A stretch of 64,000 bases of DNA from Zopfochytrium polystomum (Eukaryota > Chytridiomycota > Chytridiomycetes > Chytridiales > Chytridiaceae). The stretch's first letter is position 1. Every line of letters begins with the position of its first letter. The notes under the pieces were generated by a model that worked only from the letters and a program-made list of their open reading frames with translations, did not search any database and was not told the origin of the DNA. Location of the stretch: the NCBI GenBank assembly GCA_025765615.1, contig JAIVFJ010000012.1, forward strand, positions 1 through 64,000, given 5' to 3'. The position numbers were made by a program, and so were the translations under genes. Of the stretch, positions 29,904-64,000 are shown in pieces.

Positions 29904-30239
29904 TGATTGCTTTCTGGAAAGAGACAAGTTAGTTCAGTTTGTTTGCGCATTGTTTCGCCTCTACGCGCCCTTTGCTGTTTCCCTTTTGGCTATGGCAATC
30001 TGCAAGGCACGATCGGCGCTTGAATCGTCGGCCAAATCGTGAATGGAGACTGAGAATCTGTTGTTGTCACGGGCCGAGTCGTTTTTGAAGGCTAAGACCA
30101 TGAACAAATTAGTACGGGTTAGTGAGGGAATTCGAAGGAAGGGTCCTTTGAAGCGTGGTGGAGGTGGGCGTCTTCGGGGGTCACGTGCGGGAGTGTGTCT
30201 CACCCAAAGAACGACAGCGACAAACCTTGCGAAACAAAA

Positions 30240-32988: not shown

Positions 32989-33010
32989 ACTGATGTTATG
33001 AATCACCCTC

Positions 33011-33120
33011 TGGAAACCTCTGGAACCTTCTAGAACATTCCTTCATGGAACCTTCTGGAACCTTCTGGAACCTTCTAGAACATTCCTTCATGGAACCTTG
33101 AAGAACCTTCTGGAACCTTC
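33011..33120. promoter_or_regulatory. Expanded heat-shock-element array in LTR copy 2
   Basis: Alternating nGAAn/nTTCn pentamers; 33047-33086 is an unbroken run of eight perfect units, with further units on both sides. It lies about 110 bp upstream of the TATA box. Three or more such units define a heat shock factor site in yeast and animals. Confidence 0.78.
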
Positions 33121-33230
33121 TTTGCTTTCCTGACTTGTCTTGTTGTCATTGGTATCATTGGTATCATTGTATTACTAATTGCTCTTTCTGGAACTTTCTT
33201 GGAGTCTTGACAAGGAACACTCTCAAAAGG

Positions 33231-33238
33231 TATAAAAG
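33231..33238 (+). promoter_or_regulatory. TATA box of LTR copy 2
   Basis: TATAAAAG downstream of the heat-shock-element array; the older-looking copy 1 reads TATAACAG at the same place. Confidence 0.7.
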
Positions 33239-33351
33239 GGGGATGGGGGACCTGTCCCATCCCTCAAGTGAATTATTGTTTCCAATACAATCATCACTCC
33301 TCTCAGTTCCTTGTCTGCCTTGTCCTGTCCTGCCCTGTTCCTGACAACTGA

Positions 33352-34989
33352 GGTCTCAGTGATAAAGTCAAGGGATTTTGTTCGCAAAAACAAGCGTACC
33401 TGTCATAAAACTGCAAGGATCGGGAGCCCTATTATTATTCCTGGTTCTTTCGTTCCAAGGCGTTATCAAAGTGTATTTGCGGCTAACCCATATTTATTAT
33501 TGGGCCTGCTTTTACTACTTTCGTCTTAACAGTTCTGTTGCACCAGGGTTTTCTCAACGTATTTTCTTTTTCAGTGACTAACGGAGACTGCCTGGCTGCC
33601 TAGGGATGGGGTGCCTGACAGGCTGTACCCCAAGCCTGTCTAATTTATTATTTACTTTTGGCACTTTTACATACATGCATAGGGTTGGGAGGGACTTAGA
33701 GCATTTGTGGTGGATGCTCCAAGTCAGGGGGGTTGACTTGTCAATTTTCTTCTCTCTCTCTGTTTTAGAGCCATTTCTCTTTTTCCTTTTTGCTTCAATC
33801 TGATTTCTATCCTTTGGCACCAATACAGAGTCCCTTCAAATCCATCTGGCTCACAACAGTGAGGGTAGTGAGAGATGGTACACACCCAGGTGAGTACATG
33901 GTCCCTTCGGGGGCTCCTCTTAAGGGGCCGCGGGTGGGGAAAGCTGCTGGCCCCACCACTGACTGTGTGACACTGCTGGCTCTGTGTTGGAGGGAGGATC
34001 CCCAGCACTCGCCCACTGTAACAACAGTGGTGGCGGTGGCAATGATGACAGTGTAGTTGTCCCCAAACTTTCTGTCCCTGCGAGGGTGTTGGTGGCCACG
34101 CTCTGTGTGGCCCCCGACACCTGAGAGTTTGATCTACAAGCGCCTGCCTCATTCCTATTGCTGTGAGAGTGAGATGTGTGAGTACAAGTGCGATGCAAAA
34201 AAGCCTGTTGGTCAAGTGATCATGCCAACGCAGCCCAGCAGGGTGCATGTACGATTGCAGGTGTTTCTGCGTGCAAGTTCCCTGCTGGCAACCTTCCAAC
34301 CCCTACATAGTCGACTCCCTTCTCTCTCTTCCCCCCGTCGCTGGCAACGACGAGGGCTCCCGCAGCACCGTCTGCGACAAGGGGCACTAGGTCGCGCCCT
34401 GTCTGTCCCGTCGCTATTAACCGCTCCTGTTGTATTTGAGATTAGGTTCCTGAGATAAAAACCCCTGTTTCCCTCTTCTCTCTCTTTATTCTGCAGTTGT
34501 GTTGCGCCCTCAGGAGTGACCTTCCATTTCCCCTCGCATCAGCCTGTGGCCATGCAAGTAATCGGTGACCCGGCACTGATCCTTCAGAGGATTGTCCCTC
34601 TGCATGTTCATTCTTTGTGTTTGAGACCCCTGTTAGACAGATCAGTAGGGATACTTCGTGGACTAGGCAAGTAGTAGGGTTGAAACACCCCCTAGACAAC
34701 AGCCCAATAAAGTTAGTTTTAGCCTATTATTTGCTTTCCCTCACTCTGGGGCCTAGATCCCAGGGTGAAAGGAGTGAGTATAGTCTCACAAGTGCCCCTG
34801 CTTGGACTGAGTTCTGGAAATACTTGCCGGCTCTATGGGCCTCACTGAAGTTCAAGAAACAGCTGTGTCACGCAAAATTTTGGGGGAGCTCCCAGATCAA
34901 GATGATGTTGATCTTGCAGACTCTTGAGTGATTCATGTTTGAGTCTCAAGTTCAACCTCATATCTTTTATTTTGCCTCTCAACGGACCC
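33352..34989. other. Intergenic, no gene supported
   Basis: Mixed sequence with short frames on both strands. A GC-rich part (33,890-34,130) and pyrimidine tracts are present. I see no domain, RNA gene or clear repeat boundary. Confidence 0.4.
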
Positions 34990-39605: not shown

Positions 39606-40330
39606 TCAAGACGACGTTGAGGCAAGCCTTGCTTTGCGTGCGATGTCCTTATTGCGAGTTATAGCACGGTCGACCGAGTTGCGGGAGGCAACGTCCCTAA
39701 TCAGGAGGCCAAGTTTCACCAAGCTGAATGAAGAAAATCGTAGTGAGTACTTTTCTTTCCTTGAAGTTGAAAGAGAAAGCAAATCTCTTACGTGTTGTTT
39801 TTCTGCATTGCACGAGCGAACGCTTGTTCCGCGTCAGTGCCAGCGGGTGACTTCTGGTTGGATAATTTCAGCTCAAGAAGGCGTGAATTAGATTCAAGCG
39901 ACTCTGCAAGAGCTTTGATCTGAAATTGAAACAGTAAGTCAGGTGTGATTCTTCCTACCATTTCCGAATCCTTACCCCAGCTGGTGCAATCGCGTTCGAC
40001 TCCAAGTTCAGTGTCTCCAGCGTGTTGTTTGTCCTCAAGGCCTACAAGTGCGGAGCATAAGCGCTCCACCGAAGCAAAATCAAATCGAATCAAAAGAAAG
40101 TTTACCGTAGCAATCTCAATTGCTGAGGAAGTTTGAAGCTTGGTGTTTGCCAAGTTCAAATCCTTGAGGTGAGTGTTGGTTGCAAGACCAGCGGCCAAGG
40201 CCCCGCATAGATTGGGCGTTAGGACCTTGCAGTCTTTAATGTCCAAACTTGTGAGTGAAGGGTCGTCTGAGTTGAGCAACTGTATTGCGTGAAGGAGTTC
40301 GTCCAGGATCGGGTTTGTTGCCCGGACAAC
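39606..40330 (-). other. Tropomodulin/leiomodin-like leucine-rich domain (within giant gene)
   Basis: Spliced text: DELLHAIQLLNSDDPSLTSLDI, AAGLATNTHLKDLNLANTKL, ALRTNNTLETLNLESNAIAP, IKALAESLESNSRLLELKLS, ARAMQKNNTLVKLGL, then VDRAITRNKDIARKAR to the stop. The order NTHLK / NNTLETLN.ESN / I.AL.E.L..N..L.EL...NQ / NTTL.K and a terminal N.D..RK.R is the tropomodulin family LRR pattern. One repeat is a separate 22-codon exon (39976-40041). Confidence 0.8.
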
Positions 40331-43300
40331 GCCTGTGACAGCTGAAATTGGGACGACAGGCCCATCCGCTGCAGAACGCACGACAGGAGCTGGTACGGGT
40401 GAGTGCGATGGAGATGTCGTTATTCGACTGCCCGTAGATGAAGAACGAACTCCCTCATAGACCCTACCACGGAATGTTCCAGTCTGGGACATCGAGGGAG
40501 CCGCCATTGCGGTTGGGCTTTCTCGCGGCGGTGAGGACTTGAAGTCGAATGAGTCCCTGCTGGAAGTTGTTCGGATCGCTGAACGCTCAATGGCTGATCC
40601 CAATCTTGTTGCGGTGGTGTACGAAGTCGCTGTGGGTTGAGCTCGTCCAGCATTGGCAATCGCCTCTGCAACCAATCGCGCCTCCTCAGCTGCAGCCTTC
40701 TTTTCTGCGTCATCTTCGCTGACAGCAGGCTCTGCGCTTCCCGAGGCGGCTTTGGCAATAGCCTCTGCCACGATGCGCGCCTCTTCCTGTCGAGTGCTCT
40801 CCGCAATGTTTCGTTTCTCCTCTTCAGCGGCTTGAGCTTTCGCAATCGCCGCTGCAACCAGTTCAGCCTCCGTTTGCTTTGCAGCAGCCTCTTCAGCGGC
40901 TTGAGCAGAAGCCTGTTGTGCCTTCTCCGCCTCGTCAGCAGCTTTCTGTTCGGCAGCAGCGATAGCCTCCCGAACAAGCCGAGCCTCCTCATCCTTCAGG
41001 CGCGCTTCGTCTGCTGCCTTCTTCCCTGCGGCAATCTTTTCCGCTTCAGCCTTGGCAGCTTCCTCATCTGCAGCCTTCTTTTGGGCAGCTGCAATTGCTT
41101 CCGCGACAATACGCGCTTCCTCGTCGGCAGCACTTCGTTCCGCAGTGACGGCAACATCCACCTAGTCACGTTTTTTTTTCGGTCAGTGGTTGTGAAGGGC
41201 AAGCAGTGCTGTCAAGTTCTCACCTGAGTTTGTGTTTCTTCATGCGTCTCCTCTTGGGATACAACTTCAATTGTTACATTTGCAAACTCTTTCCCAAATT
41301 GAGAGTCAGCCTCGAGCTCCACTGATTCCGTTCTTGAGGAGAGGTAGTTTGCCTCCCTTGTCGCAACAACAGCTACTCTCTGCGTTTTAGCATAACTGAG
41401 CGTACTTTTTCAATTGGACTCACATTTTTCATCAACGCTTGTTGTGGGGACATCTCGGGAAACGTTTTCCGAGCTTGCGACTGGAAACAGTCCTGTAACT
41501 GCACTGGTCACTGTTTCTGTCACCTCTTTCACGATTGATGGTTGTGTCTTCGGGGATTCCACGGCTCTCGGCTTGGGCTCCTCTGTCTTGCGTCCTGGAA
41601 CGACACTTGCAGCACCTTTCTTCACTGCCTGAGTCATGCGCGAGAACCATCCAGGCTTCTTGCCAGACTCCTGAGCTGAAGAAGGGGCCTCGATGATAGC
41701 TTCAGTGGTAGTGACGACTTCGACAGACTTCGTAGCGGGGGTTTCAACATCGGCTGTTGGTTTATCTTCTTGTAAGATGGTATCTGTGGTCTGCACACGT
41801 TCAGTGACAATAGTCTCCACGACAGTAACTTCAACCAATTCGGGGGTCACAACTGGAGCAGCAGTTGCTGTCTCCACTTCGGATGTTTCTGCAAGCGCGG
41901 TGCTCGTCACTGCCCTTTCATCATCTGTAGCAGAGACGTGACTGGCTGAAGGTTCGGGTGTGCGGGATGTGTGCAACAACTTGGACGTGGTTTCGGAGAT
42001 CACCTCGCCAGCGTCTGCGGCAGTGGAAACAACTGCTGTTCCAGCGGCTTCCAAACCGTCAGCCACAACATCGCCTGCAGACTCCAGAGCATGGAGTGCG
42101 GCGGTTCCTGCTGTTTTTGCAGTCTGGATTCCAGCGGCACCGAGGCTTTCGCCAACATGAACGGCCGTAGTGACACCAGTCTTAACAGTTCGGACGACTT
42201 TGGAGAACCAGCTTGATTTCTCTGATTTAGCAGTCGAGGTGGTTGAAGATTCCGTAGCATCCTTCGGTCCTGCATTGGTGTCATCTCCTGACTCTGCATC
42301 GAACACACGGAGGACTTGGTCAATGACGAGTTCAACTCCAACAAGCTTGACCGCCTTTTTCAAAACTGCGAAGAGTTGCAAGAAGTTGTCTGGCTTTCCT
42401 TTCGTCACATGTGTCTTCAATGCTGTCCATTCATCTGAAGATGTCTGAATTCCATTGGATTCAAGGATTGCAGCAATGGTGGCATCATCGCAGTCTGGGG
42501 CTTCTTCAACAGCCTTCAAAAACGTACTGACATCAAAGCTGGGATTCCGCAAAGTAATCCAGCCCACAAGGCGGCTCCACCAGCAGTTGACCGCAAAGTC
42601 CGGAACTTCGATGTCAACCTCAGACTTCAGTAAATAAGAAGCAAATTAGCGCAAGCGAAATGGACCACAGTGAATATTTTTGCTTACCAATTCTTTGATC
42701 TCTCCAGAATCAGGATCCACCACTCTTCGTGTGACAGTAATGACGTAGAAGACAGCTTCTGTCGTTACAACCTCACCCTCAACCACAGATTTTTCTGCAC
42801 TGACAGGCACTTGCTCCGCACCGTCGGAAGATGAACGATGGCCAAACAATACGTCAATGACCTTGTCTCCGGTGTCGACTACTGCTCCACCAACAGCTTT
42901 AGCAGTTGAGCCAATAGATTCTCCGACATTGGAAACAGCAGTCCCAGCAGAAAGAGCGCCATGGACTGCAGCAGAACCGACATATTCTGCACCATGGATG
43001 ACACTGCCGCTTACAGCAGTAGCTCCACTCGATATAGCGCTTCCAGCTGCTCCGACGCCCTTGACCACAATTCCTCCAGCAGTTTCTGATGCGTGTACAA
43101 CGGTTGAACCAGCGGCTACTGCGCCTGCTTTCACAACGCGGACAAGACCGGTGAGCCAGCCCTCCTTCGGCTTTGCAGTAACCACCGAGTCTGTGGCAGT
43201 GACCGAGGTTTCCTTGCTTGCGTCAGCGGTTGTGTCGGCAGTTGCAACAAGAGAGCCCCCACTTGAAGCTAACAGAGGCAGAACTTGGGTTTCCACAAGT

Positions 43301-46300
43301 TCGACACCCACAACCTTGACAGTCTTTCGAATGAAAACTAGGTAGCGGACAAGAACACCTGGCTCCGATACTCCCGCCTCAGCTTTGATGTCTTCCAGTT
43401 GTTCGTGAGAGCAGCTCGCGCCAGACTCTTCAATTGCCGTACGAAGAGACTCGTCGGTGATGTTCTCAGAGTTGCCAATCGAGGTGATGAACTTTGATGC
43501 ATTGAAAGCACTAAAGCGAGAAGAAATAGCCGTAATGAGACGTTGCCACCATGGTGAGAGGGCATAGTCTGGGATTTCGACATTGTACTCTTTGGAATCT
43601 GTCACTTCGTTCGAGACTGGGTCGATAATCTGCTTTCTCAAGGTCACAACCGCACTTGTCGATTCCGTTTCCACTATTCCTGTCACTGTTTCAGCTGATG
43701 GGGGAGCCTCAACTTCTGTGGATACAAAAAATTAGGGAAAAGAAAAGGCAGATTAAAACTTACCGTCAGAAACGATGGCAGTTGATTTTGAAACCACCTC
43801 CACCGATTCTGCAGGAATGACAGTTTCTTCCACAGCTTCTTCCAATTTTCCCACCGCCGGAGGTGCTACGACTGAAGTGTTTTGGACAATAGAGGTCGAC
43901 TCATTCACAATAACTGGAATTGACTCCTCAATGGTGACTGTTGTCACCGTCTCTGTTGCTGAAGAAGCTTCGGTACTGTAGGAGTCCTTTGAAGCAGCTG
44001 GAATCACTTCCTCGGTGACGACAGTTGTCACTGCCTGTGTGGGCACCGCCTCAACAACTGATTCGACGGTGGTTGATTCCTCTCCAGACGCCAAAAGTGG
44101 GAGAACCTGAGTTGCAACAAGGTCCACTCCAACAAGCTTGATGGTCGTGCAAACAAACATCATCAGCCGTACAAAAAGGCCTGGTTCAGAAAGGCCAGCC
44201 TCGCTCTTGATTGACTCGAGCTCCTCCGCAGTGCAGGAGCCATCATACTTGCTGATGGCCTCGCTCAAGGACGCGTCTGTCACTTCATCCAACTCGCCAA
44301 TAAGCGTCAAGAACCGAGTGATGTTGAATGCTGAGAATCGAGAAACAAGGACTGCGCACAGACGATCCCACCAACTTGTGAGAGCAAAACCTGGAATCTC
44401 AATGCTGTAGTCTGTCGACTCCAACACCTCATTTGTGTCTGGGTTGATGGTCTGCTTGGTCACTGTGACAACGGCCCCAGTCACAACCTCAACAGTCTCC
44501 TCCACAGTCTCAGTTGTCGTGGTGGTGGTGAGAGTTGAACTTTCTGGAATTACAATGTCTTCTGTGACCATAACAGTCTCAGTCTTCTCTGTGATGATTG
44601 GAGCTGATTCTGCAAACAAAGGTCAGGCATGGGAATGATTGAGCTCAAAAACAAAATACAAATTGCTTACCACTCTCAACAACAACAGTCTCTTGGATGG
44701 TCGAGACAGCCTCAGATGGCACGGCAACTTCAGTGGCAACTTCTTCCACAACAGTCTTTGTGACGATTTCTGGGGCAGGCTCTTCCTTGGTCGTTGTGTA
44801 CTCCACAGCAGCTGGAGCAGCAACTTGCTCAACAACGGTGACAGTCTCGGAGGACTCAACAACCACCGGAGCAGACACAGTGTCAACAGTAGTGGTCGAA
44901 ACGGTGGTTATTGTCTCGACTGTCTCAACAGACTCGGCTGGCACAGTAGATTCACCAACAACCACTTGCTTGGATTCAATTGCTGGTGTCTCACTCAGAA
45001 CAACCTCCACTGATTCTTGCACAGCAATGTCCTCTGCTGCAGCAGGAACAGTGTTTTCGTCAACGGTGGTGGTTGTGGTGGTGGTGGTGGTTGTTGTTTC
45101 AGTGAATTCCACAGGAACTGCTTCGAAAACTGTCACTTCCTTTGTCTCCACAACAGGAGCGTCAGCAATAGCAGTGGTCAAGACTTCTTGGACCGCAGGA
45201 ACAGTGACTGTCTCTTCAACTGTGGTGATGACTGGCTCAACCGATGGTGTCACCTCCACTGTGTCAACAATATGCTCGACTGGACCAAAACTTGTCTCCA
45301 CAACAGTGGTTGTTGTTGTGGTGGTGGTTTCCAACGTTTCAACAGTCTGTTGCGGGACACTCGACTCTTCCACAACAACAATCTCCTTGGGCTCTGGAAC
45401 GAGCAAGACTTCTTCAACCACATCAACTGCAGGGGCCTCGGACTCCACCGTCGTGATAGTCTCAACGGTTTCAATGACAGTTGTGCTTTCCACTGCTGGA
45501 ACTGACGCTGCTGATTCTTCAACAATGACAGAATCCTTGACCTCAGAGACTGGTGCTGTCTCCTCAGCAACAGCCACTTTGACTTCTTCAACTGCAGGCA
45601 CAGCTGCTCGGGCCTCTGATTCAGTTGTCTTGATCATCTCAATTGTCTCAACCACAGTGGTTGTGCTCTCCACAGCGGGAACTGACACTGCTTCCTCCAG
45701 AACAATCACCTCCTTGGTCTCAGGCACAGTCTCTTCAACGACAGTTGTGGTGATTGTTGACTCTGTGGCAATCGGCACCGTTTGAGTCGGTGTGGCAGAT
45801 GGCCCTGACGTTTCTGTCACCGTAACAGTGGATGATGATGTTTCCACGACTGTGGTTGGTGCAATTGACTCCTCAACAACCGCAACCTCCTTCGTCTCAA
45901 CAGTCGGCAGCGACTCCTCAACCACCACAACAGTTGCGGTTTCATTCTGAGCTGGTACAACCTCAGCACTTTCAATAACAGTGGTGGTGGTGGTGGTGGT
46001 GGTGACAGTCTCCTCAGTCTTGAATGAGTCCACAGCTGCTGGGGCCTCTTCCAGGACAACCTCTTTGGTTTCGACCACAGCAACAGCCTCCTCAGGGACA
46101 GATGCGGTGTACACAGTCTCTGTGACAGCAGGAGCCACAACCACCTGTTCTGAAGTGGTGACAGTGGTGACTGTCTCTGCTGGTGCAGCGACCTCCACAG
46201 ACTCCTCGCCAGAGGCAAGTAGGGGAAGCACTTGGGTCTCTGTGAGTTCCACACCAACCAACTTGACAGTTGTGTGGATGAAGGAGAAAAGCCGCACAAG

Positions 46301-49300
46301 AAGTCCAGACTCAGCCACTCCAGCCTCGCTCTTGATCGACTCCAGCTCGTCAGCAGTGCAGGAGGCACCACTCTCGCTCAGAGCAGCATGCAGAGAAGCG
46401 TCCGTGACCTCGTCAGACTCGCCAATCAGAGTCAAGAAGCGTGTCACATTGAACTTGGTGAATCGAGAGGTGATGATTGTGATCAGTCGGTTCCACCAGC
46501 GTGTCAGGGCGTATCCTGGGATCTCAACATTCACTTCTGTCGACTCCAGCACCTCGTTTGTCTCAGGGTTGATGGTCTGCTTGGTCAAAGTAACGACTGC
46601 TCCAGTGACCTCCTCGACAGTTGCAACTGTCTCTGTCGTGGTCGTTGTGGTGGTGGTGGTTGTTGCAGGAATCTCCTGGCTGTCAACAACAGTCTCGCTT
46701 GAAACAACAGACTGTTCAATGGCTGTGTCAATCAAAGAGGTTTGGTAAGTCAACTTGGAGCTGCAACTGAAAGAAGTACACATACCAGTTGTTGGGACAC
46801 ATTCTCCAAGTTCAAGTGCTGCGGATTCTTGCTCGACAATCACAACCTCCTTTGCTTCTTCGGATGGCGGAACTGCAGCATATGTAGTTTCAGGCTGATA
46901 TTCAGGTGCAGATGTGATAGTCTCAGTGATCGTGGTCGTCGTTGTACTTGTCTGAATGGATTCAACTGCTGCTGGGGTTTCCTCCACAATCGTCACACTT
47001 TCCTGCACCGGAGCTTCGGACTCCACAATAGTCACAATCTTCTCCTCCGACACAATTGCCTCCACCACTGGGACTGTGCTGGTGACAGCAGCTGATATTT
47101 CTTCAAGGACTGTCACTTCCTTTGAGTCAGACACCAGAGGCTCTGCAATATCTGCAGTCGGCGCTGGAACAACTGACTCCCCAACCACAACATCTTTTGT
47201 CTCTGAAACCTCCGCAATGACAGCGGCTGGTGTTTCAACTTGAACAGCATCTTGCTTGATAGTCTCCACTATCTCGACCACAGTTGACGTGCTCTCCAGC
47301 GCTGGAACTGATCCGCTGGATTCCTCCACTATGGTTGTTTCCCTGTCATTCAGAATCGGCAGGGTCTCTGCAGTCGTGGTGATGATTTCTGTCTCGACCA
47401 CCTGTGTTTCCTCTGGAGCCTCAACCCTCTCAGTCACGGTTGTGACTTCCGTTACAGTTGTGTCAACAACTGGAGTTGCTGATTCCACGAAGGTTGCAGC
47501 CTCTTTCAACTCTATGATGTCCTCCGGGATTGTTGATGTGGCAGAGACCTCCTCAGTTACAACTGCAGTAGTTGCTGCAGCCTCTTCCACAACAGGTGCA
47601 GTTGATGAAACTTCGACACTCTCCATCACAGTGGTCACAGTGGTGGTTGTTGCCTCTGCGCTCTCGACAACTGTAGCTGGAATTTCCTCGACATCGATGG
47701 TTTTGGTCTGGGAACCTGGCAAAGTCTCCTCAACAACAGCTGTGCTGTAACTAATCTCCTCTACCGCGGGAACAGCTCCAATTTCCTCAGATGCGGTGAT
47801 TGTGGTGGTTTCCTCCACCACAGTAGTTGACATTGTCGTGACATCCTCCCGAGCAGGCACAACAGGAGCAACTTGGGCGTCAATAACTTGACCGGAGACT
47901 AGTTCCTCAATCGCAGAAATCTCCTTCGCATCGACCACAGGAGGAACATTTGCCGCATCTGACGTCATGTACGACGTCTCTTCGACCACAGGAACAGCTG
48001 AGACCACCTCTGCTGTTGTGGTGGTGACCGTTTCAACCGGAGCCGACTTCAGAACCTCAACTGATTCTTCACCCGAAGCAAGAAGAGGGACGACTTGCGT
48101 CTCCACAAGCTCGACACCAACCAGCTTGATTGCAGTGCGGATGAATGAGAACAGCCGTACCAGAAGTCCAGACTCAGCCACTCCAGCCTCACTCTTGATC
48201 AACTCCAGCTCCTCAGAAGAGCACGACACACCACACTCAGTCAGTGCAGCATGCAGAGACGTCTCCGTGACCTCCTCAGACTCGCCAATCAAAGTCAAGA
48301 AGCGAGTGATGTTGAAGCTTGGGTACCGCACCGCGATAATGGTGATCAACTTTGTCCACCACCGAGTGAGAGCATAGCCTGGAATCTCCAAGTTCACTTC
48401 AGTCGACTCAAGCACCTCATTTGTCTCCGGGTTGATTGTCTGCTTCGTCAAAGTAATGACTGCGCCAGTGACTTCTTCAACCGTCTCTGTGGTCTCAGTT
48501 GTTGTGGTTGTCGTCTTGGTCTCTGTGTAAGAAGTGGCAGGCACCTCCTCGCTGACTGGAACAGTCCCGCTCACAGTGACCGCTGGGTTGACGTAAGGAT
48601 GAGTGAGAAATAATGCAGACCCCAATCACTGGTTCGTTTACGAACCTGTTTCAACAGCTAAAGTCTCAGATACCAAAGGCACAATCTCAACGGACTCCTT
48701 CAAGTTTGTCTCGGAAACTGTTTCTGCGACAGTGATAGGAGCAATTGTGTCAATAGAATCAGTTGTGGTGGTAACCACAGAAGTTGTTGTCTCAGAGCGG
48801 ACTTCCTCAGCTTTCTGAGATTCCTCGACGACCGGTGGGGGAGCTTCAACAGTTGTAGATGTCTTGGCCGCTTCTGGAGCAACTGGAGCCGTGTCAGCAA
48901 ATACCACAGAAGCAGATTTCTCCTCATGAACAACAGGGGCAGGCTCTTCTTCCGCAATCACAGTTGTTGTTGCAATAGTCTCCTCAGAAACTGTCACAAG
49001 TTCAGATGGCCGGCTGGTTGGGGTGGATTGTTCGCTGGTGCTTGCGCTTGATGTTCGCCTTGATAGCGGGAAGGCCCCAGAGACAATTGTCTGGCCGGCT
49101 TCGAACATTTTTGAGAAGAAGCTCTTTCGCTTGGTAGATGTTTGCTCTGCCTGCGCAGGTGGCAGATACGTTTGCTCTGTGCAAATGACAGAATTAATTG
49201 CTGGAAGTTGAGCCGAAAGAAGACTTGAAACAAACCTTTTGTCTGCACAACCTCCACGACTGGAACAGTCTTCTCCTCAAGAACCTGGATTGAAGTCGTC

Positions 49301-52300: not shown

Positions 52301-55300
52301 TCAACAACTGTTGTGGTTACGGTGGTAGTAGTCTCTTGGTACTCAGCCCTGGTAGGTTCCTCAGTATTTTCTGTGAATACCTGCTTGTACTCAATAACAG
52401 GAATCTCCGTGAGAGCGACCTCGGCAGGCTCTTGCACAACTATCTCCTGAGAAGCTGGAACAACATCACTGATGACAGTCACAGTCTCTGAAGATTCCAA
52501 AATGGCGGGGACAGCCACTGATTCAACAACAGTTGTCGTAGTTGTTGATTGCACTGTCTCTACAGTCTCAGATGGGATAGGAGACTCCTCAAGAACAATC
52601 TGCTTCGGCTCGGCCACAGGCGTCTCATTCACAGATTCTGCCACAACCACTTGCTTTGATTCAATTGCTGGTGTCTCATTCGGAACAACCTCCACCAATT
52701 CTTGCACAGCAATGTCCTCAGCCGCAGCAGGAACAGCATTCTCCTCAACGATGGTGGTGGAGGTGGTGCTGGTGGTTGTCGCTTCAGTGAATTCCACAGG
52801 AACTGATTCGATAACTGTCACTTCCTTCGTCTCCCCAACAGGAACATCAGCAATAGCAGTGGTCGAGACTTCTTGGACCGCAGAAACAGTGACTGTCTCT
52901 TCAATTGTGGTGATGACTGGCTCAACTGATGGTGTCACCTCCACTGTGTCAACAATATTCTCGACTGGACCAGAACTTGTCTCCACGACAGTGGTTGTTG
53001 TGGTGGAGGTGGTTTCCAACGTTTCAACAGTCTGTTGCAGGACACTCGACTCTTCGACAACCACAATCTCCTTGGTCTCTGGAACAAGCAAGACTTCTTC
53101 AACCACTTCAACCGCAGGGGCCTCGGACTCCACTGTTGTGATAGTCTCAACAGTTTCAATGACAGTTGTTGTGCTTTCAACTGGTGGAACTGAATCTGCT
53201 GATTCTTCGACAACGGCTGTCTCCTTGACCTTGACCTCAGTGACAGGCACTGTCTCCTCAGCAATAGCCACAGTGACTTCATCGACCACAGGCACAGTGG
53301 CTGGGGCCTCTGAATCGGTTGTCTTGATGGTCTCAACAGTTTTGACCACAGTGGTGGTGCTCTCCACAGCGGGAACTGACACTGCTTCCTCCACAACAAT
53401 CACCTCCTTGACCTCAGGCACAGTCTCTTCAACAACAGAGGTGGTGATTGTGGTCTCCGTGGCAATCGGGTGCATTTCAGTCAGTGTGGCAGCAGGCTCT
53501 GATGTCTCGATCACAGTAACTGTGGTGGATGATTCAACAACGGTGGCTGGTGCATTCGACTCCTCCACAACCACGACCTCCTTTGCCTCAGCGGTTGGCA
53601 GTGACTCTTCAACCACCGTGACAGTTGTGCTTTCATTCTGAGCTGGCACAACCTCAGAACTTTCAATAACAGTGGTGGTGGTGGTGGTGGTAACAGTCTC
53701 CTCAGTCTTCATGGAGTCCACAGCAACAGGGCTCTCTTCCACAACAACCACGTTGCTCTCAACCACAGCAACAGCCTCCTCAGGAACAGATGTGGTGTAC
53801 AAAGTCTCTGTGACAGCAGGGGCCACAACCACTTGCTCCGAAGTGACTGTTGTCGTGACTGACTCTGCGGGAGGAACAACCTCCACCGACTCCTCGCCAG
53901 AGGCAAGGAGCGGAAGCACCTGCGTCTCTGTGAGTTCCACACCGACCAACTTGACAGTTGTGCGGATGAAGGAGAAAAGCCGCACAAGAAGTCCAGACTC
54001 GGCCACTCCAGCCTCGCTCTTGATCGACTCCAGCTTGTCAGCAGTGCAGGAGACACCACTCTCGCTCAGAGCAGCATGCAGAGAAGCGTCTGTGACCTCG
54101 TCAGACTCGCCAATCAGAGTCAAGAAGCGTGTCACATTGAAGTTGGTGAATTGAGAGGTGATAATCGTGATAAGTCGGCTCCACCAGTGAGTCAAGGCGT
54201 ATTCTGGGATCTCAACATTCACTTCTGTCGACTCCAGGACCTCGTTTGTCTCAGGGTTGATTGTCTGCTTGGTCAAAGTAATGACTGCGCCAGTGACTTC
54301 TTCAACTGTCTCTTTGGTCTCAGTTGTTGTAGTTGTCGTCTTGGTCTCTGTGTAAGACGTGGCAGGCACTTCTTCACTGACAGCCACAGTCTCACTCATA
54401 ATCACTGCTGGTTCGACTAAAGGCAATGAAAAGGATGGTGAGAAAAAGTTTAAGGGATCAGTCATTGGCAACGAACCTGATTCGACTACAATAGTCTCCG
54501 CAACAGAATTCTTTGACGTTATCTCCTCCACAACTGTTTCTGCGACAGAGATAGGAGCAACTGTGTCAACAGTTTCAGTCGTTGTGGTGACTGTGGTACT
54601 GGTCGTCTCAAAAGGGATTTGCTCCGTTGTCTCGACAAACTCGATGGTTGGTGGTGGGATTTCAACCACTTCAGCGACCGCTGCTGGGGAAGCATTTTCG
54701 TTGTCGACTTCGGTCGTGATAGTCGTGACTGTAGTGACAGTCGTGGATGTTTCTGCCAGTTTGGAAGCCAGAGGTGCTTCGACTTCCTCAGCTTTCTCGA
54801 CCACCTCAAGGACTGGCAGAACTTCAACAGCTTCGACAGTTGTTGCTGGGGCAGACTCACTGCGAGTATCTGTCACGACTGTTGTGGATGATGTCTCGGC
54901 AGCAACTGTGGCGATGGGAGCTGCTTCGACAACGACCTGGAAGACAGATTCCTCTTTGTGAACAACAGGAACAGGCTCTTCGTGCCCACTGGTTATGGTT
55001 GTAACAGTCTCCTCTGAAACGGTCACAAGCTCAGATGGGCCGCTGGCAGGAGTTGACTGCTGGCTTCCGCTGCCACTTGACGTTCGCCTCGACAATGGGA
55101 AAGCGCCTGAGACAATAGTCTGGCCAGCCTCAAACATTTTCGAGAAGAAGCTCTTCCTCTTGTTTGAAACCTCTTCAGTCTGTGCTGGTGGAGTGTACAG
55201 TTTTTCTAAAACCAGGTTAGACTCTCATTGAAATGAAATGCTGATGATTACCTTTGGTGCTGTCGATGGTGGTCTCTGGCACTGTTGTGACTGAGGTTGA

Positions 55301-58300
55301 CTCTTCCGTTGTGATCACAGAGGTTTCTGCAGTAACTGGGGCAATGGTCTCAGGCTGGACAATGCTGGTGGTGGTTATCACATCCACAACAATCTTCTCT
55401 TGGGCGACTTCTGGAGCTTTCACAACCTCCACCACCTTTTCAGTCACCTCCGTGATCATTGGAGTGTCCAAAATAGTTTCTGTTGTCGAAATAGTGGTTG
55501 TCGTTGATTCAAGCACTTCAACAGGAGCAGCAGTCTCGACGACATACTCCTTTGTCTCAACAACAGTCGCAACGGATGGCAACACTTCTAAAACTTCAGC
55601 CTTTGAAACTTCCACAGCTGGCTGAGCACTGGCGATCTCTTCAGTTACTGCTGTGGTGGTAGTGATTGTCTCAACAGACTCAATTGCAGCAGGAGAAATC
55701 TCGACGACAGAGGCCTCTGGGACATGAACATAAGATGACTCTTTGGCGACTGGTGCTTCCAAAGACACAATCTCTGCAGCCGTTTCGGATGTTGTAGTCA
55801 CAGTCTCCACAGTCTGACTGGTCTCAATAGGAATAACTTCATTCACAGCCTCCACACTGTTCTCACTGGTTTCAAGGAGTGGCAGGATCTGAGTTTCAAC
55901 AAGTGAAACACCAACGAGTTGAATAGTGGTGTGGATGAACCCAAACAGTCTTGTGAGCAACCCAGCCTCGGCAAGTCCAGCTTCAGCCTTGAAACTTTCA
56001 ACGTCTTCAGCAGTGCACGAATCGCCACATTCTGCTGTAATGGCCTCTGTCAAGGAAGCGTCGTTGATGTCTTCAGCATTGCCGATGCGAGTTAAGAATT
56101 GTGTGGTGTTGAAAGTGGAGTACCGCGTAGTCAAGATAGTGAGCAACTTCTTCCACCATGAAGTGAGTGCAAAGCCTGGGATTTCCACATTGACCTCCGT
56201 CGACTCAAGAACCTCGTTCGTGTCTGGGTTGAAAGTTTGCTTCGTCAGAGTAACAACTGCACCAGTGACGGTTTCGACAGTTTGCTCCACAGTTTCAGTT
56301 GTCGAGCTCGAGATTGTGCCACTGGGAATTTCTTCTGAAAAAACGATGGTCTCCACTGACTCAGCTGCTGCGATAGCATCTGAATGGATGATATCAATTT
56401 GATATGCTGGGGTTGAAGCGTGAAAGGATTAGTTCTTACCAGTTTCCTTAGACCGTTCAAAAACTTCCTCGGCATTGACAGGTTCCGACAAATTCACAGC
56501 AGTTTCAACGACCTCCGTGGAAGTTGTGATAGTGGTGGTGGCTGTCTCAACAGTTTCTGTGGAGTCAATAACAGCGCGTTCCTCTGTTGAATCAGCAATC
56601 TCGACAACGTCAGCAATAGGCTCAGTTGCAGTAACAGTATCAACAACTATAGATTCCTCAACCACCGTTTTCTCAACAATAGGTTCAACTGCAGACCCCT
56701 TGACCTCTGTGATAACAGTTACTGATGACTCAATAGCCTCAGGAACAGTTTCCACGACTGTATCCTTCTCGGCAATGTCCTCAATCTCCGGCACAGTAGA
56801 CACAGCACCAGTTTCGGGGATCACAACAACTTGATCTTCCGTTACAGTTGTCTCAGCCGTGGCAGTTTCAATCAGTTGGACAGGAACTAAGGAGCATTTG
56901 AGTAATGACTGTCAAGAAGCAAATTGAAATATTGTTCAAACCTTCAACAGCTGATCGAACTTCTTCCACTATAGTGACAGTCTCAACAGTTTGCTCTGTT
57001 TCAGCGACTGGTTCAGCAACAATAACAGCTGTTTCAACGACTGCTTCAACTTCAACAGCAGTTTTCTCGACAACTGCGTCAGTCGTTGTTGTCACTGTGG
57101 TCTCCTGTACAATCACTTCAGTTGGCTCAACTGAAGTGCGACCAGATGGAGTGACACGACCAGAAGATGTCCGTCTCGCAATGGGGAAAGCGCCAGACAC
57201 AATGCTTTGTCCAGTTTCAAACATTTTTGTAAAGAAACTCTTGCGCTTTGGAGCCTCTTGCTGAACAGGGGGCTGGTAGACTGGTTCTGCAACTAAAAAC
57301 AAAAATGTTTAGAACAAAATGGAAAAAGAAGCTCCTTACCTTTTGCGACAGAAGTAGGGTTAGCAGTGATGACTTCAATCGATTGAGTAGATTCCACGAC
57401 TGCAACAGTCTCTGGAGGCTTGTCCGCAATGACCTCAGACGTCTCTGTCACAACAACAGTCTCTTCCTTGGCAAGGGACACATCAGAGGACACAGCAGCC
57501 TCCACAGTCTCGTCTCCTGAGGCAAGCAACGGAAGAACCTGAGTTTCAACAAGCTCGACGCCAACCAACTTAATGGTTTTTTGGATGAACGAGAACAGCC
57601 GACTAAGAAGGCCAGGTTCAGATAAGCCAGCCTCAGACTTAATGACTGCAAGCTCTTCCGCAGAGCACGACACCCCCGACTCGACAAGAGCAGCGTTCAA
57701 AGACGCATCAGAGACATCCTCTGATTCCCCGATCAGTGTCAAAAACTTCGTGGTGTTGAATGTGCTGTAGCGGCTTGTGATGATTGCAAGCAGCTTCTTG
57801 TACCAGCTGTTCAAGGCAAACTCCGGGATTTCGACATTGTACTCAGTTGAATCAAGAACTTCATCAGTATCCGGATTAATGACCTGCTTTGTCAAGGTAA
57901 TAACTGCGCCAGTGACAACCTCGCCGGATTGGTTGGAGGACTCGATGACTGAGACTGTAGTGCTTGGCAGTGTGTCCTCACTGACTGACGCGTCCTTCGT
58001 CAATGGCATATCCTCTGTGGTTGCGATGGCAGTTTCGGTAACAGTAGTCTCCACAGTCTGTTGTCCTGGAGCGACAACTTCTGTAATAACTAGAATTTGT
58101 AAGAAATTGACAAACAATTTCAACACTCACCCTCTATGGCAGGAGCATTATCTACCACAGTGACAATCTCCTTTGCTTCGATGACAGGAACTTCCAGAAT
58201 CTCCTCAGTAAGTGTTGTCTTCTCAACAATCTCCTTTGTTTCGATAGTGGGAGCCTCAGTCACTTGAGAAACAGTTGTGGTGGTTGTGGCAGTAAGTGAT

Positions 58301-61300
58301 TCCTCCTCTACCGCAGGAGCAGCCGTTTCCTCACCCACAAGAACCTCAGACTTTTCCACAACTGTCACAACGACAGTTGAAGATTCCACAACAGAGGTTG
58401 TCTCCTCCACAACAGCCGGAGGCACCTCCTCTGTCATTGCAACAATCGACATCGTCTCAGTCGGCACAGTCTCAACAACATGAGATTTGTCCACGATGAC
58501 TTCTGACGTTTTCACAACTGGTGCTGCTTCCACTGAAGAAGCTTCGGTACTGTAGGAGTCCTTTGAAACAGCTGGAATCACTTCCTCGGTGACGACAGTT
58601 GTCACTGCCTGTGTGGGCACCGCCTCAACAACTGATTCGACGGTGGTTGATTCCTCTCCAGACGCCAAAAGTGGGAGAACCTGAGTTGCAACAAGGTCCA
58701 CTCCAACAAGCTTGATGGTCGTGCAAACAAACATCATCAGCCGTACAAAAAGGCCTGGTTCAGAAAGGCCAGCCTCGCTCTTGATTGACTCGAGCTCCTC
58801 CGCAGTGCAGGAGCCATCATACTTGCTGATGGCCTCGCTCAAGGACGCGTCTGTCACTTCATCCAACTCGCCAATAAGCGTCAAGAACCGAGTGATGTTG
58901 AATGCTGAGAATCGAGAAACAAGGACTGCGCACAGACGATCCCACCAACTTGTGAGAGCAAAACCTGGAATCTCAATGCTGTAGTCTGTCGACTCCAACA
59001 CCTCATTTGTGTCTGGGTTGATGGTCTGCTTGGTCACTGTGACAACGGCCCCAGTCACAACCTCAACAGTCTCCTCCACAGTCTCAGTTGTCGTGGTGGT
59101 GGTGAGAGTTGAACTTTCTGGAATTACAATGTCTTCTGTGACCATAACAGTCTCAGTCTTCTCTGTGATGATTGGAGCTGATTCTGCAAACAAAGGTCAG
59201 GCATGGGAATGATTGAGCTCAAAAACAAAATACAAATTGCTTACCACTCTCAACAACAACAGTCTCTTGGATGGTCGAGACAGCCTCAGATGGCACGGCA
59301 ACTTCAGTGGCAACTTCTTCCACAACAGTCTTTGTGACGATTTCTGGGGCAGGCTCTTCCTTGGTCGTTGTGTACTCCACAGCAGCTGGAGCAGCAACTT
59401 GCTCAACAACGGTGACAGTCTCGGAGGACTCAACAACCACCGGAGCAGACACAGTGTCAACAGTAGTGGTCGAAACGGTGGTTATTGTCTCGACTGTCTC
59501 AACAGACTCGGCTGGCACAGTAGATTCACCAACAACCACTTGCTTGGATTCAATTGCTGGTGTCTCACTCAGAACAACCTCCACTGATTCTTGCACAGCA
59601 ATGTCCTCTGCTGCAGCAGGAACAGTGTTTTCGTCAACGGTGGTGGTTGTGGTGGTGGTGGTGGTTGTTGTTTCAGTGAATTCCACAGGAACTGCTTCGA
59701 AAACTGTCACTTCCTTTGTCTCCACAACAGGAGCGTCAGCAATAGCAGTGGTCAAGACTTCTTGGACCGCAGGAACAGTGACTGTCTCTTCAACTGTGGT
59801 GATGACTGGCTCAACCGATGGTGTCACCTCCACTGTGTCAACAATATGCTCGACTGGACCAAAACTTGTCTCCACAACAGTGGTTGTTGTTGTGGTGGTG
59901 GTTTCCAACGTTTCAACAGTCTGTTGCGGGACACTCGACTCTTCCACAACAACAATCTCCTTGGGCTCTGGAACGAGCAAGACTTCTTCAACCACATCAA
60001 CTGCAGGGGCCTCGGACTCCACCGTCGTGATAGTCTCAACGGTTTCAATGACAGTTGTGCTTTCCACTGCTGGAACTGACGCTGCTGATTCTTCAACAAT
60101 GACAGAATCCTTGACCTCAGAGACTGGTGCTGTCTCCTCAGCAACAGCCACTTTGACTTCTTCAACTGCAGGCACAGCTGCTCGGGCCTCTGATTCAGTT
60201 GTCTTGATCATCTCAATTGTCTCAACCACAGTGGTTGTGCTCTCCACAGCGGGAACTGACACTGCTTCCTCCAGAACAATCACCTCCTTGGTCTCAGGCA
60301 CAGTCTCTTCAACGACAGTTGTGGTGATTGTTGACTCTGTGGCAATCGGCACCGTTTGAGTCGGTGTGGCAGATGGCCCTGACGTTTCTGTCACCGTAAC
60401 AGTGGATGATGATGTTTCCACGACTGTGGTTGGTGCAATTGACTCCTCAACAACCGCAACCTCCTTCGTCTCAACAGTCGGCAGCGACTCCTCAACCACC
60501 ACAACAGTTGCGGTTTCATTCTGAGCTGGTACAACCTCAGCACTTTCAATAACAGTGGTGGTGGTGGTGGTGGTGGTGACAGTCTCCTCAGTCTTGAATG
60601 AGTCCACAGCTGCTGGGGCCTCTTCCAGGACAACCTCTTTGGTTTCGACCACAGCAACAGCCTCCTCAGGGACAGATGCGGTGTACACAGTCTCTGTGAC
60701 AGCAGGAGCCACAACCACCTGTTCTGAAGTGGTGACAGTGGTGACTGTCTCTGCTGGTGCAGCGACCTCCACAGACTCCTCGCCAGAGGCAAGTAGGGGA
60801 AGCACTTGGGTCTCTGTGAGTTCCACACCAACCAACTTGACAGTTGTGTGGATGAAGGAGAAAAGCCGCACAAGAAGTCCAGACTCAGCCACTCCAGCCT
60901 CGCTCTTGATCGACTCCAGCTCGTCAGCAGTGCAGGAGGCACCACTCTCGCTCAGAGCAGCATGCAGAGAAGCGTCCGTGACCTCGTCAGACTCGCCAAT
61001 CAGAGTCAAGAAGCGTGTCACATTGAACTTGGTGAATCGAGAGGTGATGATTGTGATCAGTCGGTTCCACCAGCGTGTCAGGGCGTATCCTGGGATCTCA
61101 ACATTCACTTCTGTCGACTCCAGCACCTCGTTTGTCTCAGGGTTGATGGTCTGCTTGGTCAAAGTAACGACTGCTCCAGTGACCTCCTCGACAGTTGCAA
61201 CTGTCTCTGTCGTGGTCGTTGTGGTGGTGGTGGTTGTTGCAGGAATCTCCTGGCTGTCAACAACAGTCTCGCTTGAAACAACAGACTGTTCAATGGCTGT

Positions 61301-64000
61301 GTCAATCAAAGAGGTTTGGTAAGTCAACTTGGAGCTGCAACTGAAAGAAGTACACATACCAGTTGTTGGGACACATTCTCCAAGTTCAAGTGCTGCGGAT
61401 TCTTGCTCGACAATCACAACCTCCTTTGCTTCTTCGGATGGCGGAACTGCAGCATATGTAGTTTCAGGCTGATATTCAGGTGCAGATGTGATAGTCTCAG
61501 TGATCGTGGTCGTCGTTGTACTTGTCTGAATGGATTCAACTGCTGCTGGGGTTTCCTCCACAATCGTCACACTTTCCTGCACTTGAGGCTGTGTTTCTGA
61601 GTCGGCAACAACCACAACCTTCTCTTCAGCAAACTTGACTTCTGCTGGAACAGATTCAGAAATGAATTCAGATTTCACAGATTCTTGTGCAGCTTCTGTG
61701 AATTTCTCCGCAATTGGCTCAGTTTCCACTTCTGTTGCTTCATATGATACAGTCGACTCTGAAGCAACAGCTGGGAGGTACTTCGCAGCTTCGAGCAGAA
61801 CCGTATCAACTGGAGCCAGAGCCGTTTCCACCCTTACTTCACTTGTTGAAATGATGAGCTCAGCAGACTTGACAGCAGTGGGAGCATCAACAATTTCGAT
61901 GACCTCCTTGGTCTCCGAAGCTGACTCTGGAAGATTTGCGTGAGAGGTGGGATGTGATGCCAATGTCTCGTCAACTGAAGTTGTGGTGATTGTTGTGACA
62001 GTTTCGACAACGTGACTCGAAGCAGGAATCTCTTGAGCGGCCACATCCTCGGTCTCAGTTGTAACCACCGCTTGGATTGATGTTGTCGCGGTAGATTCAA
62101 CAGGAGCAGAGACTTCAACAGTTTCAACTGATTGTTCACCAGTCTCCAAGAGCGGAAGCACCTGGGTTTCGACGAGTTCTACACCGACGAGCTTGATCGT
62201 GGAGCGAATGAAAGAAAATAGACGTACAAGGAGCCCTATCTCAGTCACGCCTGCCTCCTTCTTGATTGATTCAAGCTCGTCAATTGAGCACACAGCTCCA
62301 CTGTCGGCTAGTGCGGCAATGATGGAAGCATCGGTCACTTCTTCCGACTCTCCGATGAGAGTGAGGAACCGAGAAACATTGAACGTGGTGTACCGAGTGG
62401 TCAAGACAGTGAGGAAACGTCTCCACCAACGTGTTAATGCGAACCCAGGGATTTCGACATTGAAATCGAAGGACTCCAGGACCTCGTTTGTGTCTGGGTT
62501 TATGACTTGCTTCGTCAACGTGATAATCGCACCAGTCACAACTTCAACGGTTTCCCGAACTGTTTCCGTGGTTGTTGTTGTTGTTGATGAAGTGGTTGCC
62601 ACAGGAAGCTCCTCAGTGATTGTGACAGTCTTTGTTGCTGCGTCATCGAAAGGGATTGGAGTGGCGCCTTTGACAACTTCGGTACTTTCTGTAACAATTG
62701 TCGTTTCCTGAACAGCAAATGGGACGTCAACTGCTCCACCTTTCTCCAACGTTGTCGCTTGAGTCGTCTCTGGCATTGTTCCGCTAACGGCAACTGACGT
62801 TGTGATAGCCTCAACTGGTGCAACTTCGGCCTGCTCTTCACCTGACGCAAGCAACGGAAGGACCTGCGTCTCAACAAGCTCAACACCAACAAGTCTGATG
62901 GTCGAGTGGATGAAGACAAACAATCGGACCAGAAGGCCAGGTTCCGTGATGCCAGCCTCCCGTTTGATATCCTCCAGCTCAGCTGCACTGCAAGGAGCTC
63001 CACTTGCAGCCAGAGCAGATTCCAAAGACGCATCAGTCACCTCATCTGACTCTCCAATCAGAGTAAGGAAGCGAGTGATGTTGAATGCAGTGAAGCGTGT
63101 GGTCAAAATGCGGGTGAGAGTTAGCCACCACTTTGTCAGAGCGTAGCCTGGAATCTCCACCGAGTATTCAGTGGAGTTGATGACCTCCCTGGTGTCCGGG
63201 TTGAGCTCCTGCTTGGTGAGAGTAACTATGGCGCCAGTCACAACTTCCACGGTTTGGTGGGTTTCCGTCGTCATGGTGGTTGTTGCTGCAGGAGCCGTAA
63301 CGACTGTCTCAGAAGAAATAAGCCCAAGCTCCTTCGTAGAGTCTACTGCGGGAATCACCACTGTTTCAGAGGTTGTCCTTGTTTCAGTTTCTTCAACAGT
63401 CTTGGCTGTGTCAGCATCAGCGGTTCCTGAAGCCTGCTCTTCTGCTGAGGCAAGGAGCGGTAGAACCTGACTTTCCACCAATTCCACACCAACGAGCCGC
63501 ACAGTTCTCCGCACAAAAGTGAAAAGGCGGACGAGTAGCCCAGGTTCTGCGAGGCCGACTTCTTGGGATATCAACTTGAGCTCAGAGTCAGTACATCCAG
63601 CGCCAGCCTTGTCGAGTGCGTGTAGAATGTCAGCGTCTGTCACGTCATTGTCAGAGTCGCCAAGAGCCGTCAAGAAAGCAGTAACGCTGAATGAAGTATA
63701 GCGTGCCAAGATGGTGGAGCTGAAAAGAAGCCACCACTTTGTGAGGGCGTAACCAGGAATTTCAACGGAATAATCAGTTGATTCAAGGACACTGCCGGTT
63801 GCGGGATCGACAGTTTGCTTTGTGAGGGTGATGATGGCACCAGTAACAATTTCAATGGTTTGCTCAGTTGTAGTGGTTGTTGTTGTGGTTGAAGTGGCTG
63901 CTGTGGCCTCCGGAACGATGACTTCCTTCGACATTTCTTGAGCAATGACAGCCTCCGAGCCAACAACAACAATGCTGTCTGAGCTTCCGCCTTCTGAAAC
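39606..64000 (-). CDS. Giant modular protein with tropomodulin-like C-terminus (5' end beyond window)
   Basis: Model: complement of 23 exons: 39606..39723, 39792..39919, 39976..40041, 40106..41161, 41224..41375, 41424..42624, 42688..43715, 43764..44609, 44671..46722, 46786..48582, 48646..49176, 49236..50480, 50527..50805, 50857..52230, 52287..54416, 54477..55205, 55252..56379, 56440..56886, 56942..57292, 57340..58089, 58131..59183, 59245..61296, 61360..>64000. All junctions are GT-AG with introns of 41-68 nt, and the frame holds throughout: 7,717 codons plus stop, roughly 0.8 MDa. From the N-terminal side there are 15 copies of a ~145-residue module separated by Thr/Val/Glu/Pro-rich linkers, then amphipathic Ala/Val/Gly helices (41,600-43,170), an Ala/Glu-rich helix (40,640-41,161) and a tropomodulin/leiomodin-like leucine-rich domain (39,606-40,330). 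No membrane segment is seen. I infer a cytoskeletal scaffold; the modules are unrecognised. Base composition is more balanced than in the GC-rich genes to the left. Confidence 0.85.
40640..41161 (-). repeat. Ala/Glu-rich helical repeats (within giant gene)
   Basis: The unit EEARIVAEAIAAA recurs five times with variants (EEARLVREAIAAA, EAELVAAAIAKA, EEARIVAEAIAKA, EEARLVAEAIANA), separated by Lys/Glu/Ala sequence. This predicts a long charged helix before the LRR domain. Confidence 0.75.
41610..43175 (-). repeat. Amphipathic 11-mer-like helices (within giant gene)
   Basis: Three segments start with a basic/aromatic box (KEGWLTGLVRVVKAG, KSSWFSKVVRTVKTG, KKPGWFSRMTQAVKKG). The first two continue as long Ala/Gly/Val/Thr stretches with regular Gly-Ala spacing and sparse charges (42,850-43,165 and 41,960-42,220). 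The pattern resembles membrane-surface or lipid-droplet-binding helices such as perilipin or synuclein 11-mers; that role is inference. Confidence 0.55.
42285..42770 (-). repeat. Giant-gene module 15 (split by an intron)
   Basis: VITVTRRVVDPDSGEIKEL, intron 42625-42687 (phase 0), then SEVDIEVPDFAVNCWW ... VKLVGVELVIDQVLRVF. The otherwise invariant Cys is lost (GIQTSSDEW). It is the last and most diverged module. Confidence 0.8.
43250..43690 (-). repeat. Giant-gene module 14
   Basis: Diverged start (ESTSAVVTLRKQIIDP), then PWW ... GASCSHEQL ... LPLLASSGG. Confidence 0.82.
44074..44511 (-). repeat. Giant-gene module 13 (twin of module 5)
   Basis: Translation identical to module 5; offset 14,574 bp. 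Confidence 0.9.
46200..46631 (-). repeat. Giant-gene module 12 (twin of module 4)
   Basis: Translation identical to module 4; offset 14,574 bp. Confidence 0.9.
48062..48493 (-). repeat. Giant-gene module 11
   Basis: ETVEEVTGAVITLTKQ ... RWW ... GVSCSSEEL ... VPLLASGEE. Confidence 0.88.
49999..50428 (-). repeat. Giant-gene module 10
   Basis: ETVEEVTGAIITLTKQ ... SWW ... GASCTDEEL ... LPLLASGEE. Confidence 0.88.
51632..52065 (-). repeat. Giant-gene module 9
   Basis: ETTEVVSGAVITLTKQ ... SWW ... GGVCGAEEL ... LPLLASEE. Confidence 0.88.
53888..54316 (-). repeat. Giant-gene module 8
   Basis: ETVEEVTGAVITLTKQ ... HWW ... GVSCTADKL ... LPLLASGEE. Confidence 0.88.
55858..56290 (-). repeat. Giant-gene module 7
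   Basis: QTVETVTGAVVTLTKQ ... SWW ... GDSCTAEDV ... LPLLETSEN; has one extra residue before the Cys and an additional Cys (AECGDSC). Confidence 0.87.
57509..57935 (-). repeat. Giant-gene module 6
   Basis: GEVVTGAVITLTKQ ... SWY (second Trp replaced by Tyr) ... GVSCSAEEL ... LPLLASGDE. Confidence 0.88.
58648..59085 (-). repeat. Giant-gene module 5 (twin of module 13)
   Basis: ETVEVVTGAVVTVTKQ ... SWW ... DGSCTAEEL ... LPLLASGEE. Lies in the duplicated block. Confidence 0.9.
60774..61205 (-). repeat. Giant-gene module 4 (twin of module 12)
   Basis: ATVEEVTGAVVTLTKQ ... RWW ... GASCTADEL ... LPLLASGEE. Lies in the 3,045-bp duplicated block. Confidence 0.9.
62131..62560 (-). repeat. Giant-gene module 3
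   Basis: ETVEVVTGAIITLTKQ ... RWW ... GAVCSIDEL ... LPLLETGEQ. Confidence 0.88.
62836..63261 (-). repeat. Giant-gene module 2
   Basis: QTVEVVTGAIVTLTKQ ... KWW ... GAPCSAAEL ... LPLLASGEE. Confidence 0.88.
63437..63868 (-). repeat. Giant-gene module 1
   Basis: Starts EQTIEIVTGAIITLTKQ, contains KWW and GAGCTDSEL, ends LPLLASAEE. The most diverged of the modules upstream of module 14. Confidence 0.85.

Follow-up and report, generated by a model that had tools for sequence, protein, structure and literature searches.

Long modular chains which are tied to actin ends or to the membrane are known from the spectrin membrane skeleton, from titin and from nebulin. Tropomodulin and leiomodin, as seen in the structures 1io0, 8iah, 4z79 and 4rwt, share a leucine-rich repeat (LRR) domain with a terminal helix. 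In the literature searched no paper was found which joins the terms chytrid and tropomodulin, or tropomodulin and Capsaspora, and by term search a review on actin evolution (PMC12050087) does not contain the word tropomodulin. Here a locus of the chytrid Zopfochytrium polystomum is described, which lies on contig C12 (JAIVFJ010000012.1, 576,191 bp; the genome has 80.2 Mb in 761 contigs). Positions 1 to 64,000 of this contig are called the window, and the adjoining 40 kb were also read. The minus strand carries a giant gene with a predicted product of 17 similar modules (m1 to m17) and a tail of the tropomodulin/leiomodin type. About 160 residues, including the LRR domain and the terminal helix, can be aligned with the four structures, but in the giant this domain stands at the end of a modular chain of 8,000 residues. 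The giant is proposed to work in the manner of the spectrin skeleton, titin and nebulin, yet no spectrin or nebulin repeat and no immunoglobulin (Ig) or fibronectin type III (FnIII) domain was found at E ≤ 1 in the seven exon pieces and 19 modules scanned.

Tropomodulin-Type Tail

The tail comprises residues 8039–8215 and is encoded by four exons at 39606..40327 of the minus strand. Tropomodulin (1io0) matched it with an E value of 3.1e-26 over residues 13–172 of the 177 tail residues, covering the LRR domain and the terminal helix, and was followed by Tmod1 (8iah, 1.7e-22) and leiomodin-1 (1e-20). Ribonuclease inhibitor and further LRR proteins came at 3.5e-18 and above, with the exception of one ribonuclease-inhibitor-like chain at 1e-19. 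This match bears out the actin-cap-like LRR domain noticed in a preliminary description of the same DNA. From a set of 5.8 billion proteins 11 relatives of the tail were drawn at E ≤ 1e-10, the closest named ones being those of Blyttiomyces sp. JEL0837 (80%), Cladochytrium tenue (79%), Chytridium lagenaria (61%), and Cladochytrium replicatum (60%). None of the seven inner branches was starred in a tree of the tail relatives, which did not include P0005, P0009, and P0010. The LTPNLC motif of the giant's tail recurs in P0002 of C. tenue, the C35 gene described below and the proteins of Blyttiomyces, C. lagenaria, and C. replicatum having an FT..HG form at this place.

A tropomodulin-type domain occurs in this chytrid twice, at the end of the 8,215-residue chain and in a short gene on contig C35, which is 73% identical over tail residues 1–144 and 85% identical in the last exon. 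The tails are alike, but unlike in the giant no modules were found in the 10 kb surrounding the short gene. A tropomyosin-family match in the genome suggests that a usual partner of tropomodulin may also be present.

The capping elements of tropomodulin sit N-terminal to the LRR domain, as described in PMC4571291. For the tropomyosin- and actin-binding helices TMBS1, ABS1, and TMBS2, a search of the 278 residues which precede the tail gave no PDB match at E ≤ 1, short helices being easily missed in this way. As these elements were not found, pointed-end capping is less sure than actin binding, and the tail might instead nucleate filaments or bind to their side in the way of leiomodin, which would make the giant a membrane-bound actin organiser. 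The match to ABS2 of leiomodin-1 and the failure to find the N-terminal sites speak for this alternative. We nevertheless consider it rather unlikely, because tropomodulin gives the top score and because the gene model, which closes directly behind the LRR helix, has no counterpart of the C-terminal extension with WH2 domain described for leiomodin.

Gene Structure and Extent

The curated gene model lies on the minus strand of C12. It starts with an ATG at 66065 and ends with the stop codon at 39606, its coding sequence having 24,648 nt for 8,215 amino acids and one stop. There are 27 exons and 26 GT-AG introns, which measure 46–68 nt with two exceptions (149 and 281 nt) and are mostly in phase 1 (17 of 26), eight being in phase 0 and one in phase 2. 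The window part, 39606..64000 on the minus strand, contains exons 5–27; exons 1–4 and the ATG lie beyond it on C12. Four introns which are in frame and free of stop codons were excised by judgement, three of them in a stretch where the public gene model P0012 excises them too. P0012, a protein of 4,845 amino acids from the same contig, corresponds to residues 1–4814 of the giant at 99.94%, and the agreement includes introns with weak donors (GTTTGA, GTTCGT). After residue 4814 it keeps a 46-nt intron (50526..50481) unspliced and reaches a stop near 50,420. Since P0012 splices an intron at a similar place before m10, its end is read as a prediction error and not as the end of the gene.

The preliminary description had joined the minus-strand frames of the window through phase-matched GT-AG introns into one giant gene of more than 7,700 residues with fifteen modules. 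The 26 introns, the single stop, and the agreement with P0012 support the joining, the full model has the 8,215 residues given above, and the curated model likewise places fifteen modules (m3–m17) in the window. Extension past 64,000, suggested there as the way to the start, led to the ATG and to two further modules, m1 and m2. The coding sum had rightly been called a multiple of three with a single stop, but the 23,154 nt given for it are 23,142 nt in the curated model, a gap of 12 nt which must stem from the choice of introns.

If P0012 did end correctly near 50,420, two adjacent genes would be present, one for a module protein of 4,845 amino acids and the other for a module-plus-tropomodulin protein of about 3,400 amino acids. 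This we regard as distinctly improbable: splicing of the 46-nt intron restores the frame in phase 1, the phase of most introns of the gene, and P0012 itself splices at the comparable place before m10; m12 begins already at 50409, so that no space is left for an intergenic region, and the modules on either side of the break are alike and under selection. The predicted giant gene most likely encodes a single continuous chain of 8,215 residues. It is more than a chance open frame, as is evident from the match to P0012, the selection on the modules described below, and the likeness of the 17 modules.

A further alternative concerns the number of the modules. Two direct repeat copies of 3,050 bp each, copy A at 43959..47008 and copy B at 58533..61582, lie 14,574 bp apart and are 99.97% identical. 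Due to this identity m6 equals m14 and m7 equals m15 over the 135 codons compared, and the count of the 14.57-kb units is uncertain. Contig C688 (14,636 bp), about as long as one unit, covers a unit of this kind at about 99%, and in C12 coordinates its ends lie next to each other. The exact 3-kb repeat may accordingly be a product of the assembly, the real gene having fewer or more modules, for example 9 or 25 and not 17. The size of the repeat, its near identity, and the ends of C688 agree with this; we still think it unlikely, as a unit at the related locus C51 is also near-identical in three copies, which makes recent exchange plausible in the module family. An assembly product would moreover alter the length of the protein and not its kind. 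The actual chromosome may carry a number of modules other than 17, and this number may vary.

The receptor paralog on C51 (15001–25000) contains a tandem of three units, near-identical and about 1,866 bp long. Every unit has one module together with an Ala/Gly-rich helix segment or the beginning of one, which suggests that the module family renews itself by unit duplication. C688 was also considered as a second allele for a test of selection and was rejected, because its differences from C12 are such as sequencing error would give: 25 insertions or deletions, 18 of them of 1 nt and 11 of these at 59047–60930, and 68 nonsynonymous against 32 synonymous codon changes. Four of the insertions or deletions, being 3 or 6 nt long, point to a certain real difference.

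Modules, Linkers, and Helices

All modules are encoded on the minus strand. Those which P0012 also contains are, within the window, m3 (63473..63850), m4 (62867..63244), m5 (62165..62542), m6 (60809..61186; identical to m14), m7 (58684..59061; identical to m15), m8 (57542..57919), m9 (55895..56272), m10 (53923..54300), and m11 (51668..52045). Past the end of P0012 follow m12 (50032..50409), m13 (48098..48475), m14 (46235..46612), m15 (44110..44487), m16 (43288..43665), and m17 (42319..42759), the only module of the window with an internal intron, which is in phase 0. Such a module-internal intron is also found in m1 and m2 and is absent from the 14 modules between. A profile made from the 17 modules recovers all 17 at i-Evalues ≤ 3.6e-55, which is circular and shows their likeness. 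After two identical pairs had been removed from the 105 module pairs, the proportion of nonsynonymous differences (pN) was smaller than that of synonymous differences (pS) in all 103 that were left, and the corresponding rate ratio dN/dS was 0.11–0.18 in the nine unsaturated module pairs listed and 0.41 in one linker pair. Purifying selection on the modules is seen before and behind the P0012 end alike. The spacers between them range from 49 to 596 residues, and threonine, valine, and glutamate make up 55% of the 4,929 linker residues counted.

Pfam gave no match of weight for the seven exon pieces and 19 modules, and the PDB gave none for the module, either by sequence or by fold. The best Pfam match was PF19300, an N-terminal profile of ABC permeases, with 19.5 bits at a cut-off of 23.8; P0012 bears the same label in the protein database. 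It was set aside as a chance match, being below the cut-off and extending over some 40 residues of a profile for bacterial permeases. By profile, module positions 69–113 resemble an EF-hand pair as in EFCAB6 (score 28.7, probability 59%, 0 of 100 column shuffles), and 23 of the 24 weak PDB matches of the module were EF-hand proteins, the best with an E value of 0.012. The fold search with the better model of the module did not list the EF-hand fold, and in the profile alignment the module loop has no Asp, Asn, or Glu at the positions of the template Asp ligands 1, 3, and 5, thus differing from EF-hand proteins in the acidic calcium ligands.

Relatives of the module were also sought among proteins. 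None was found at E ≤ 0.01 among 3,303 candidates of about 90–285 amino acids by alignment, and a search with one module among 353 candidates of about 1,760–5,600 amino acids returned only P0012 and missed the paralogs C265, C51, and C41 of the same genome; 93 pattern matches in a prokaryote and 13 in a viral collection included no confirmed relative. The searches of the protein sets had no working positive control, and absence elsewhere is not shown by them. Within the searches made, the whole protein fits no described family while its tail is, as judged by sequence, of tropomodulin type, and the preliminary term undescribed holds in so far as the module had no weighty Pfam or PDB match.

Amphipathic helices and a charged helix, also announced in the preliminary description, are predicted by the sequence analysis as well, all of them on the minus strand. 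Basic amphipathic helices occur three times in a KRKSFF form (57186..57248, 55099..55161, and 49070..49132) and three times in a GW/SW form, one of these being the GWFSR helix at 41596..41652; two GW/SW copies head the segments with 11/3-helix periodicity. These are a long Ala/Gly-rich amphipathic segment at 42820..43164 (residues 7152–7266) and a second Ala/Gly-rich one at 41959..42213 (residues 7448–7532). In both the hydrophobic moment peaks at 98.5 degrees (0 of 300 shuffles each), a helix of 11 residues in three turns having 98.2 degrees. In synuclein and perilipins, helices of the 11/3 type rest on the surface of lipids. A charged helix rich in Ala, Glu, and Lys extends over 40640..41161, with approximate bounds set by eye.

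Kelch-Domain Relatives in the Genome

Modules were found at five other loci, C41, C51 (also C519), C265, C37 (also C216), and C59, where C519 and C216 were taken as duplicate contigs on account of parallel matches. A Kelch query from C265 yielded seven places, namely, the same five module loci and the two apparent duplicate contigs, and no others (eight of eight candidates scored). In all four loci read, C41, C51, C265, and C37, a membrane-span segment follows the Kelch part. The five loci share with the giant the module and the kind of internal intron of its early modules, and C41, C51, and C265 have Ala/Gly-rich helix segments in common with it. They differ in having a Kelch part and, in the four read, a membrane span, and in the LRR tail, which was not seen on C41, C51, and C265; the giant is the reverse. 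A Kelch domain or membrane span upstream of the giant was looked for and not found: in C12:1–104000 there was no tblastn match for Kelch below E 0.1, and the Kelch query lists none on C12. The highest hydrophobicity of the giant (KD19 1.97) lies inside a helix of m2 and no separate hydrophobic segment is seen; the span of C41 reaches 2.09.

A midpoint-rooted tree was calculated from 22 modules, seven of them from paralogs, with 6 of 19 inner branches starred. Modules m1 and m2 group with the receptor modules C51_2 and C41_2 (97/93), and twelve central modules stand together (92/97, not starred). At C37:231001–239500 a much diverged module locus was noticed, with many short helical repeats and with Kelch and membrane span upstream. 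The wider module superfamily may extend beyond what the module query reveals.

Possible Physiological Role

The Kelch/membrane-span relatives and the separate tropomodulin-type gene indicate the plasma membrane and actin as the surroundings of the giant. It could be a flexible tether, the tail holding actin filaments, likely at their pointed ends, and the modules and helices attaching to the membrane or to membrane receptors, a reading to which we give slightly less than an even chance. It takes the open frame, the modules, the homology of the tail, and the modules common to five Kelch loci from the sequence and adds the binding steps by inference. The giant and the receptors would go back to a single module gene, probably that of a receptor which lost its ectodomain and membrane span; the simplest history also includes a multiplication of the middle modules and the gain of the tail, from a tropomodulin-type gene like that on C35. 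The tail is predicted to hold on to actin filaments, probably by their pointed ends, the modules might bind each other or a common partner and so bring the giant to the receptor tails, the 11/3 helices may rest on the membrane, and the linkers could be springs which give stretch.

The preliminary description had thought of a titin-like ruler or tether for the cortex, the flagellar base, or organelles. With spacers of variable length and a unit number that looks unstable a titin-like ruler is not supported and a tether fits better, and nothing in support of a role at the flagellar base or in organelles was found in the analysis. Several points weigh against the tether as well. The binding of the giant to actin and to the membrane and of modules to each other is in each case predicted; the N-terminal capping elements described in PMC4571291 were not found before the tail, short helices being easily missed; and the giant itself has neither Kelch domain nor clear membrane span, the stretch in m2 being not far below the span of C41. 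The grouping of m1 and m2 with receptor modules rests on seven paralog modules of many in a tree with a midpoint root, and P0012 breaks off at residue 4,845, the giant chain being a gene model.

A more far-reaching and doubtful proposal is that chytrids built a membrane skeleton of their own: a giant tropomodulin-tipped spring would, by means of a new kind of module, dock onto Kelch-domain surface receptors at their cytoplasmic tails, which bear modules too, and link substrate contact directly to actin pointed ends, its length evolving by unequal exchange of module units. With a tropomodulin-type domain both in the short gene and at the end of the giant, the fungi would have pointed-end control and a membrane skeleton, the predicted tether being a counterpart of the animal membrane skeleton, and a testable answer would be given to the question of how wall-less chytrid zoospores hold their cortex. 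Transformation is reported for a laboratory chytrid, Spizellomyces punctatus (PMC7213984). Since the receptors also carry the module, for which Pfam and PDB gave no confident match, a single binding experiment could open the whole system.

Other Features of the Window and Genome

The genome has strong matches to chitin synthase, a family which also appears in 4 of the 14 control genomes. It further has an IFT57 match above the cut-off, a level which none of the 14 controls reached. Together with the chytrid relatives of the tail these matches make a chytrid the most likely host. In the window, an open reading frame for a major facilitator transporter lies at 1887–3605 of the minus strand (E 1.8e-35). 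Mobile elements are indicated by a Helitron_like_N match at 20267–21355 of the minus strand (E 3e-61) and a match to the SH3 domain of retroviral polymerases at 11323–12384 of the plus strand (E 3.7e-9). The stretch 27896–29912 is repeated in inverted orientation at 84944–86985 of the same contig (95%), as is 33369–34800 at 72755–74175 (89%). An element with an array of ACCTTCTGGA units, by eye similar to the heat-shock element TTCnnGAA, occurs in the window at 33005–33348 and 16647–16929, the two copies being 90.6% alike. It was listed at at least 42 places of the genome, 40 of them full length at 99–100% identity (40 scored of 1,196 first-look candidates), and is, judged from these copies, a recently spread high-copy repeat.

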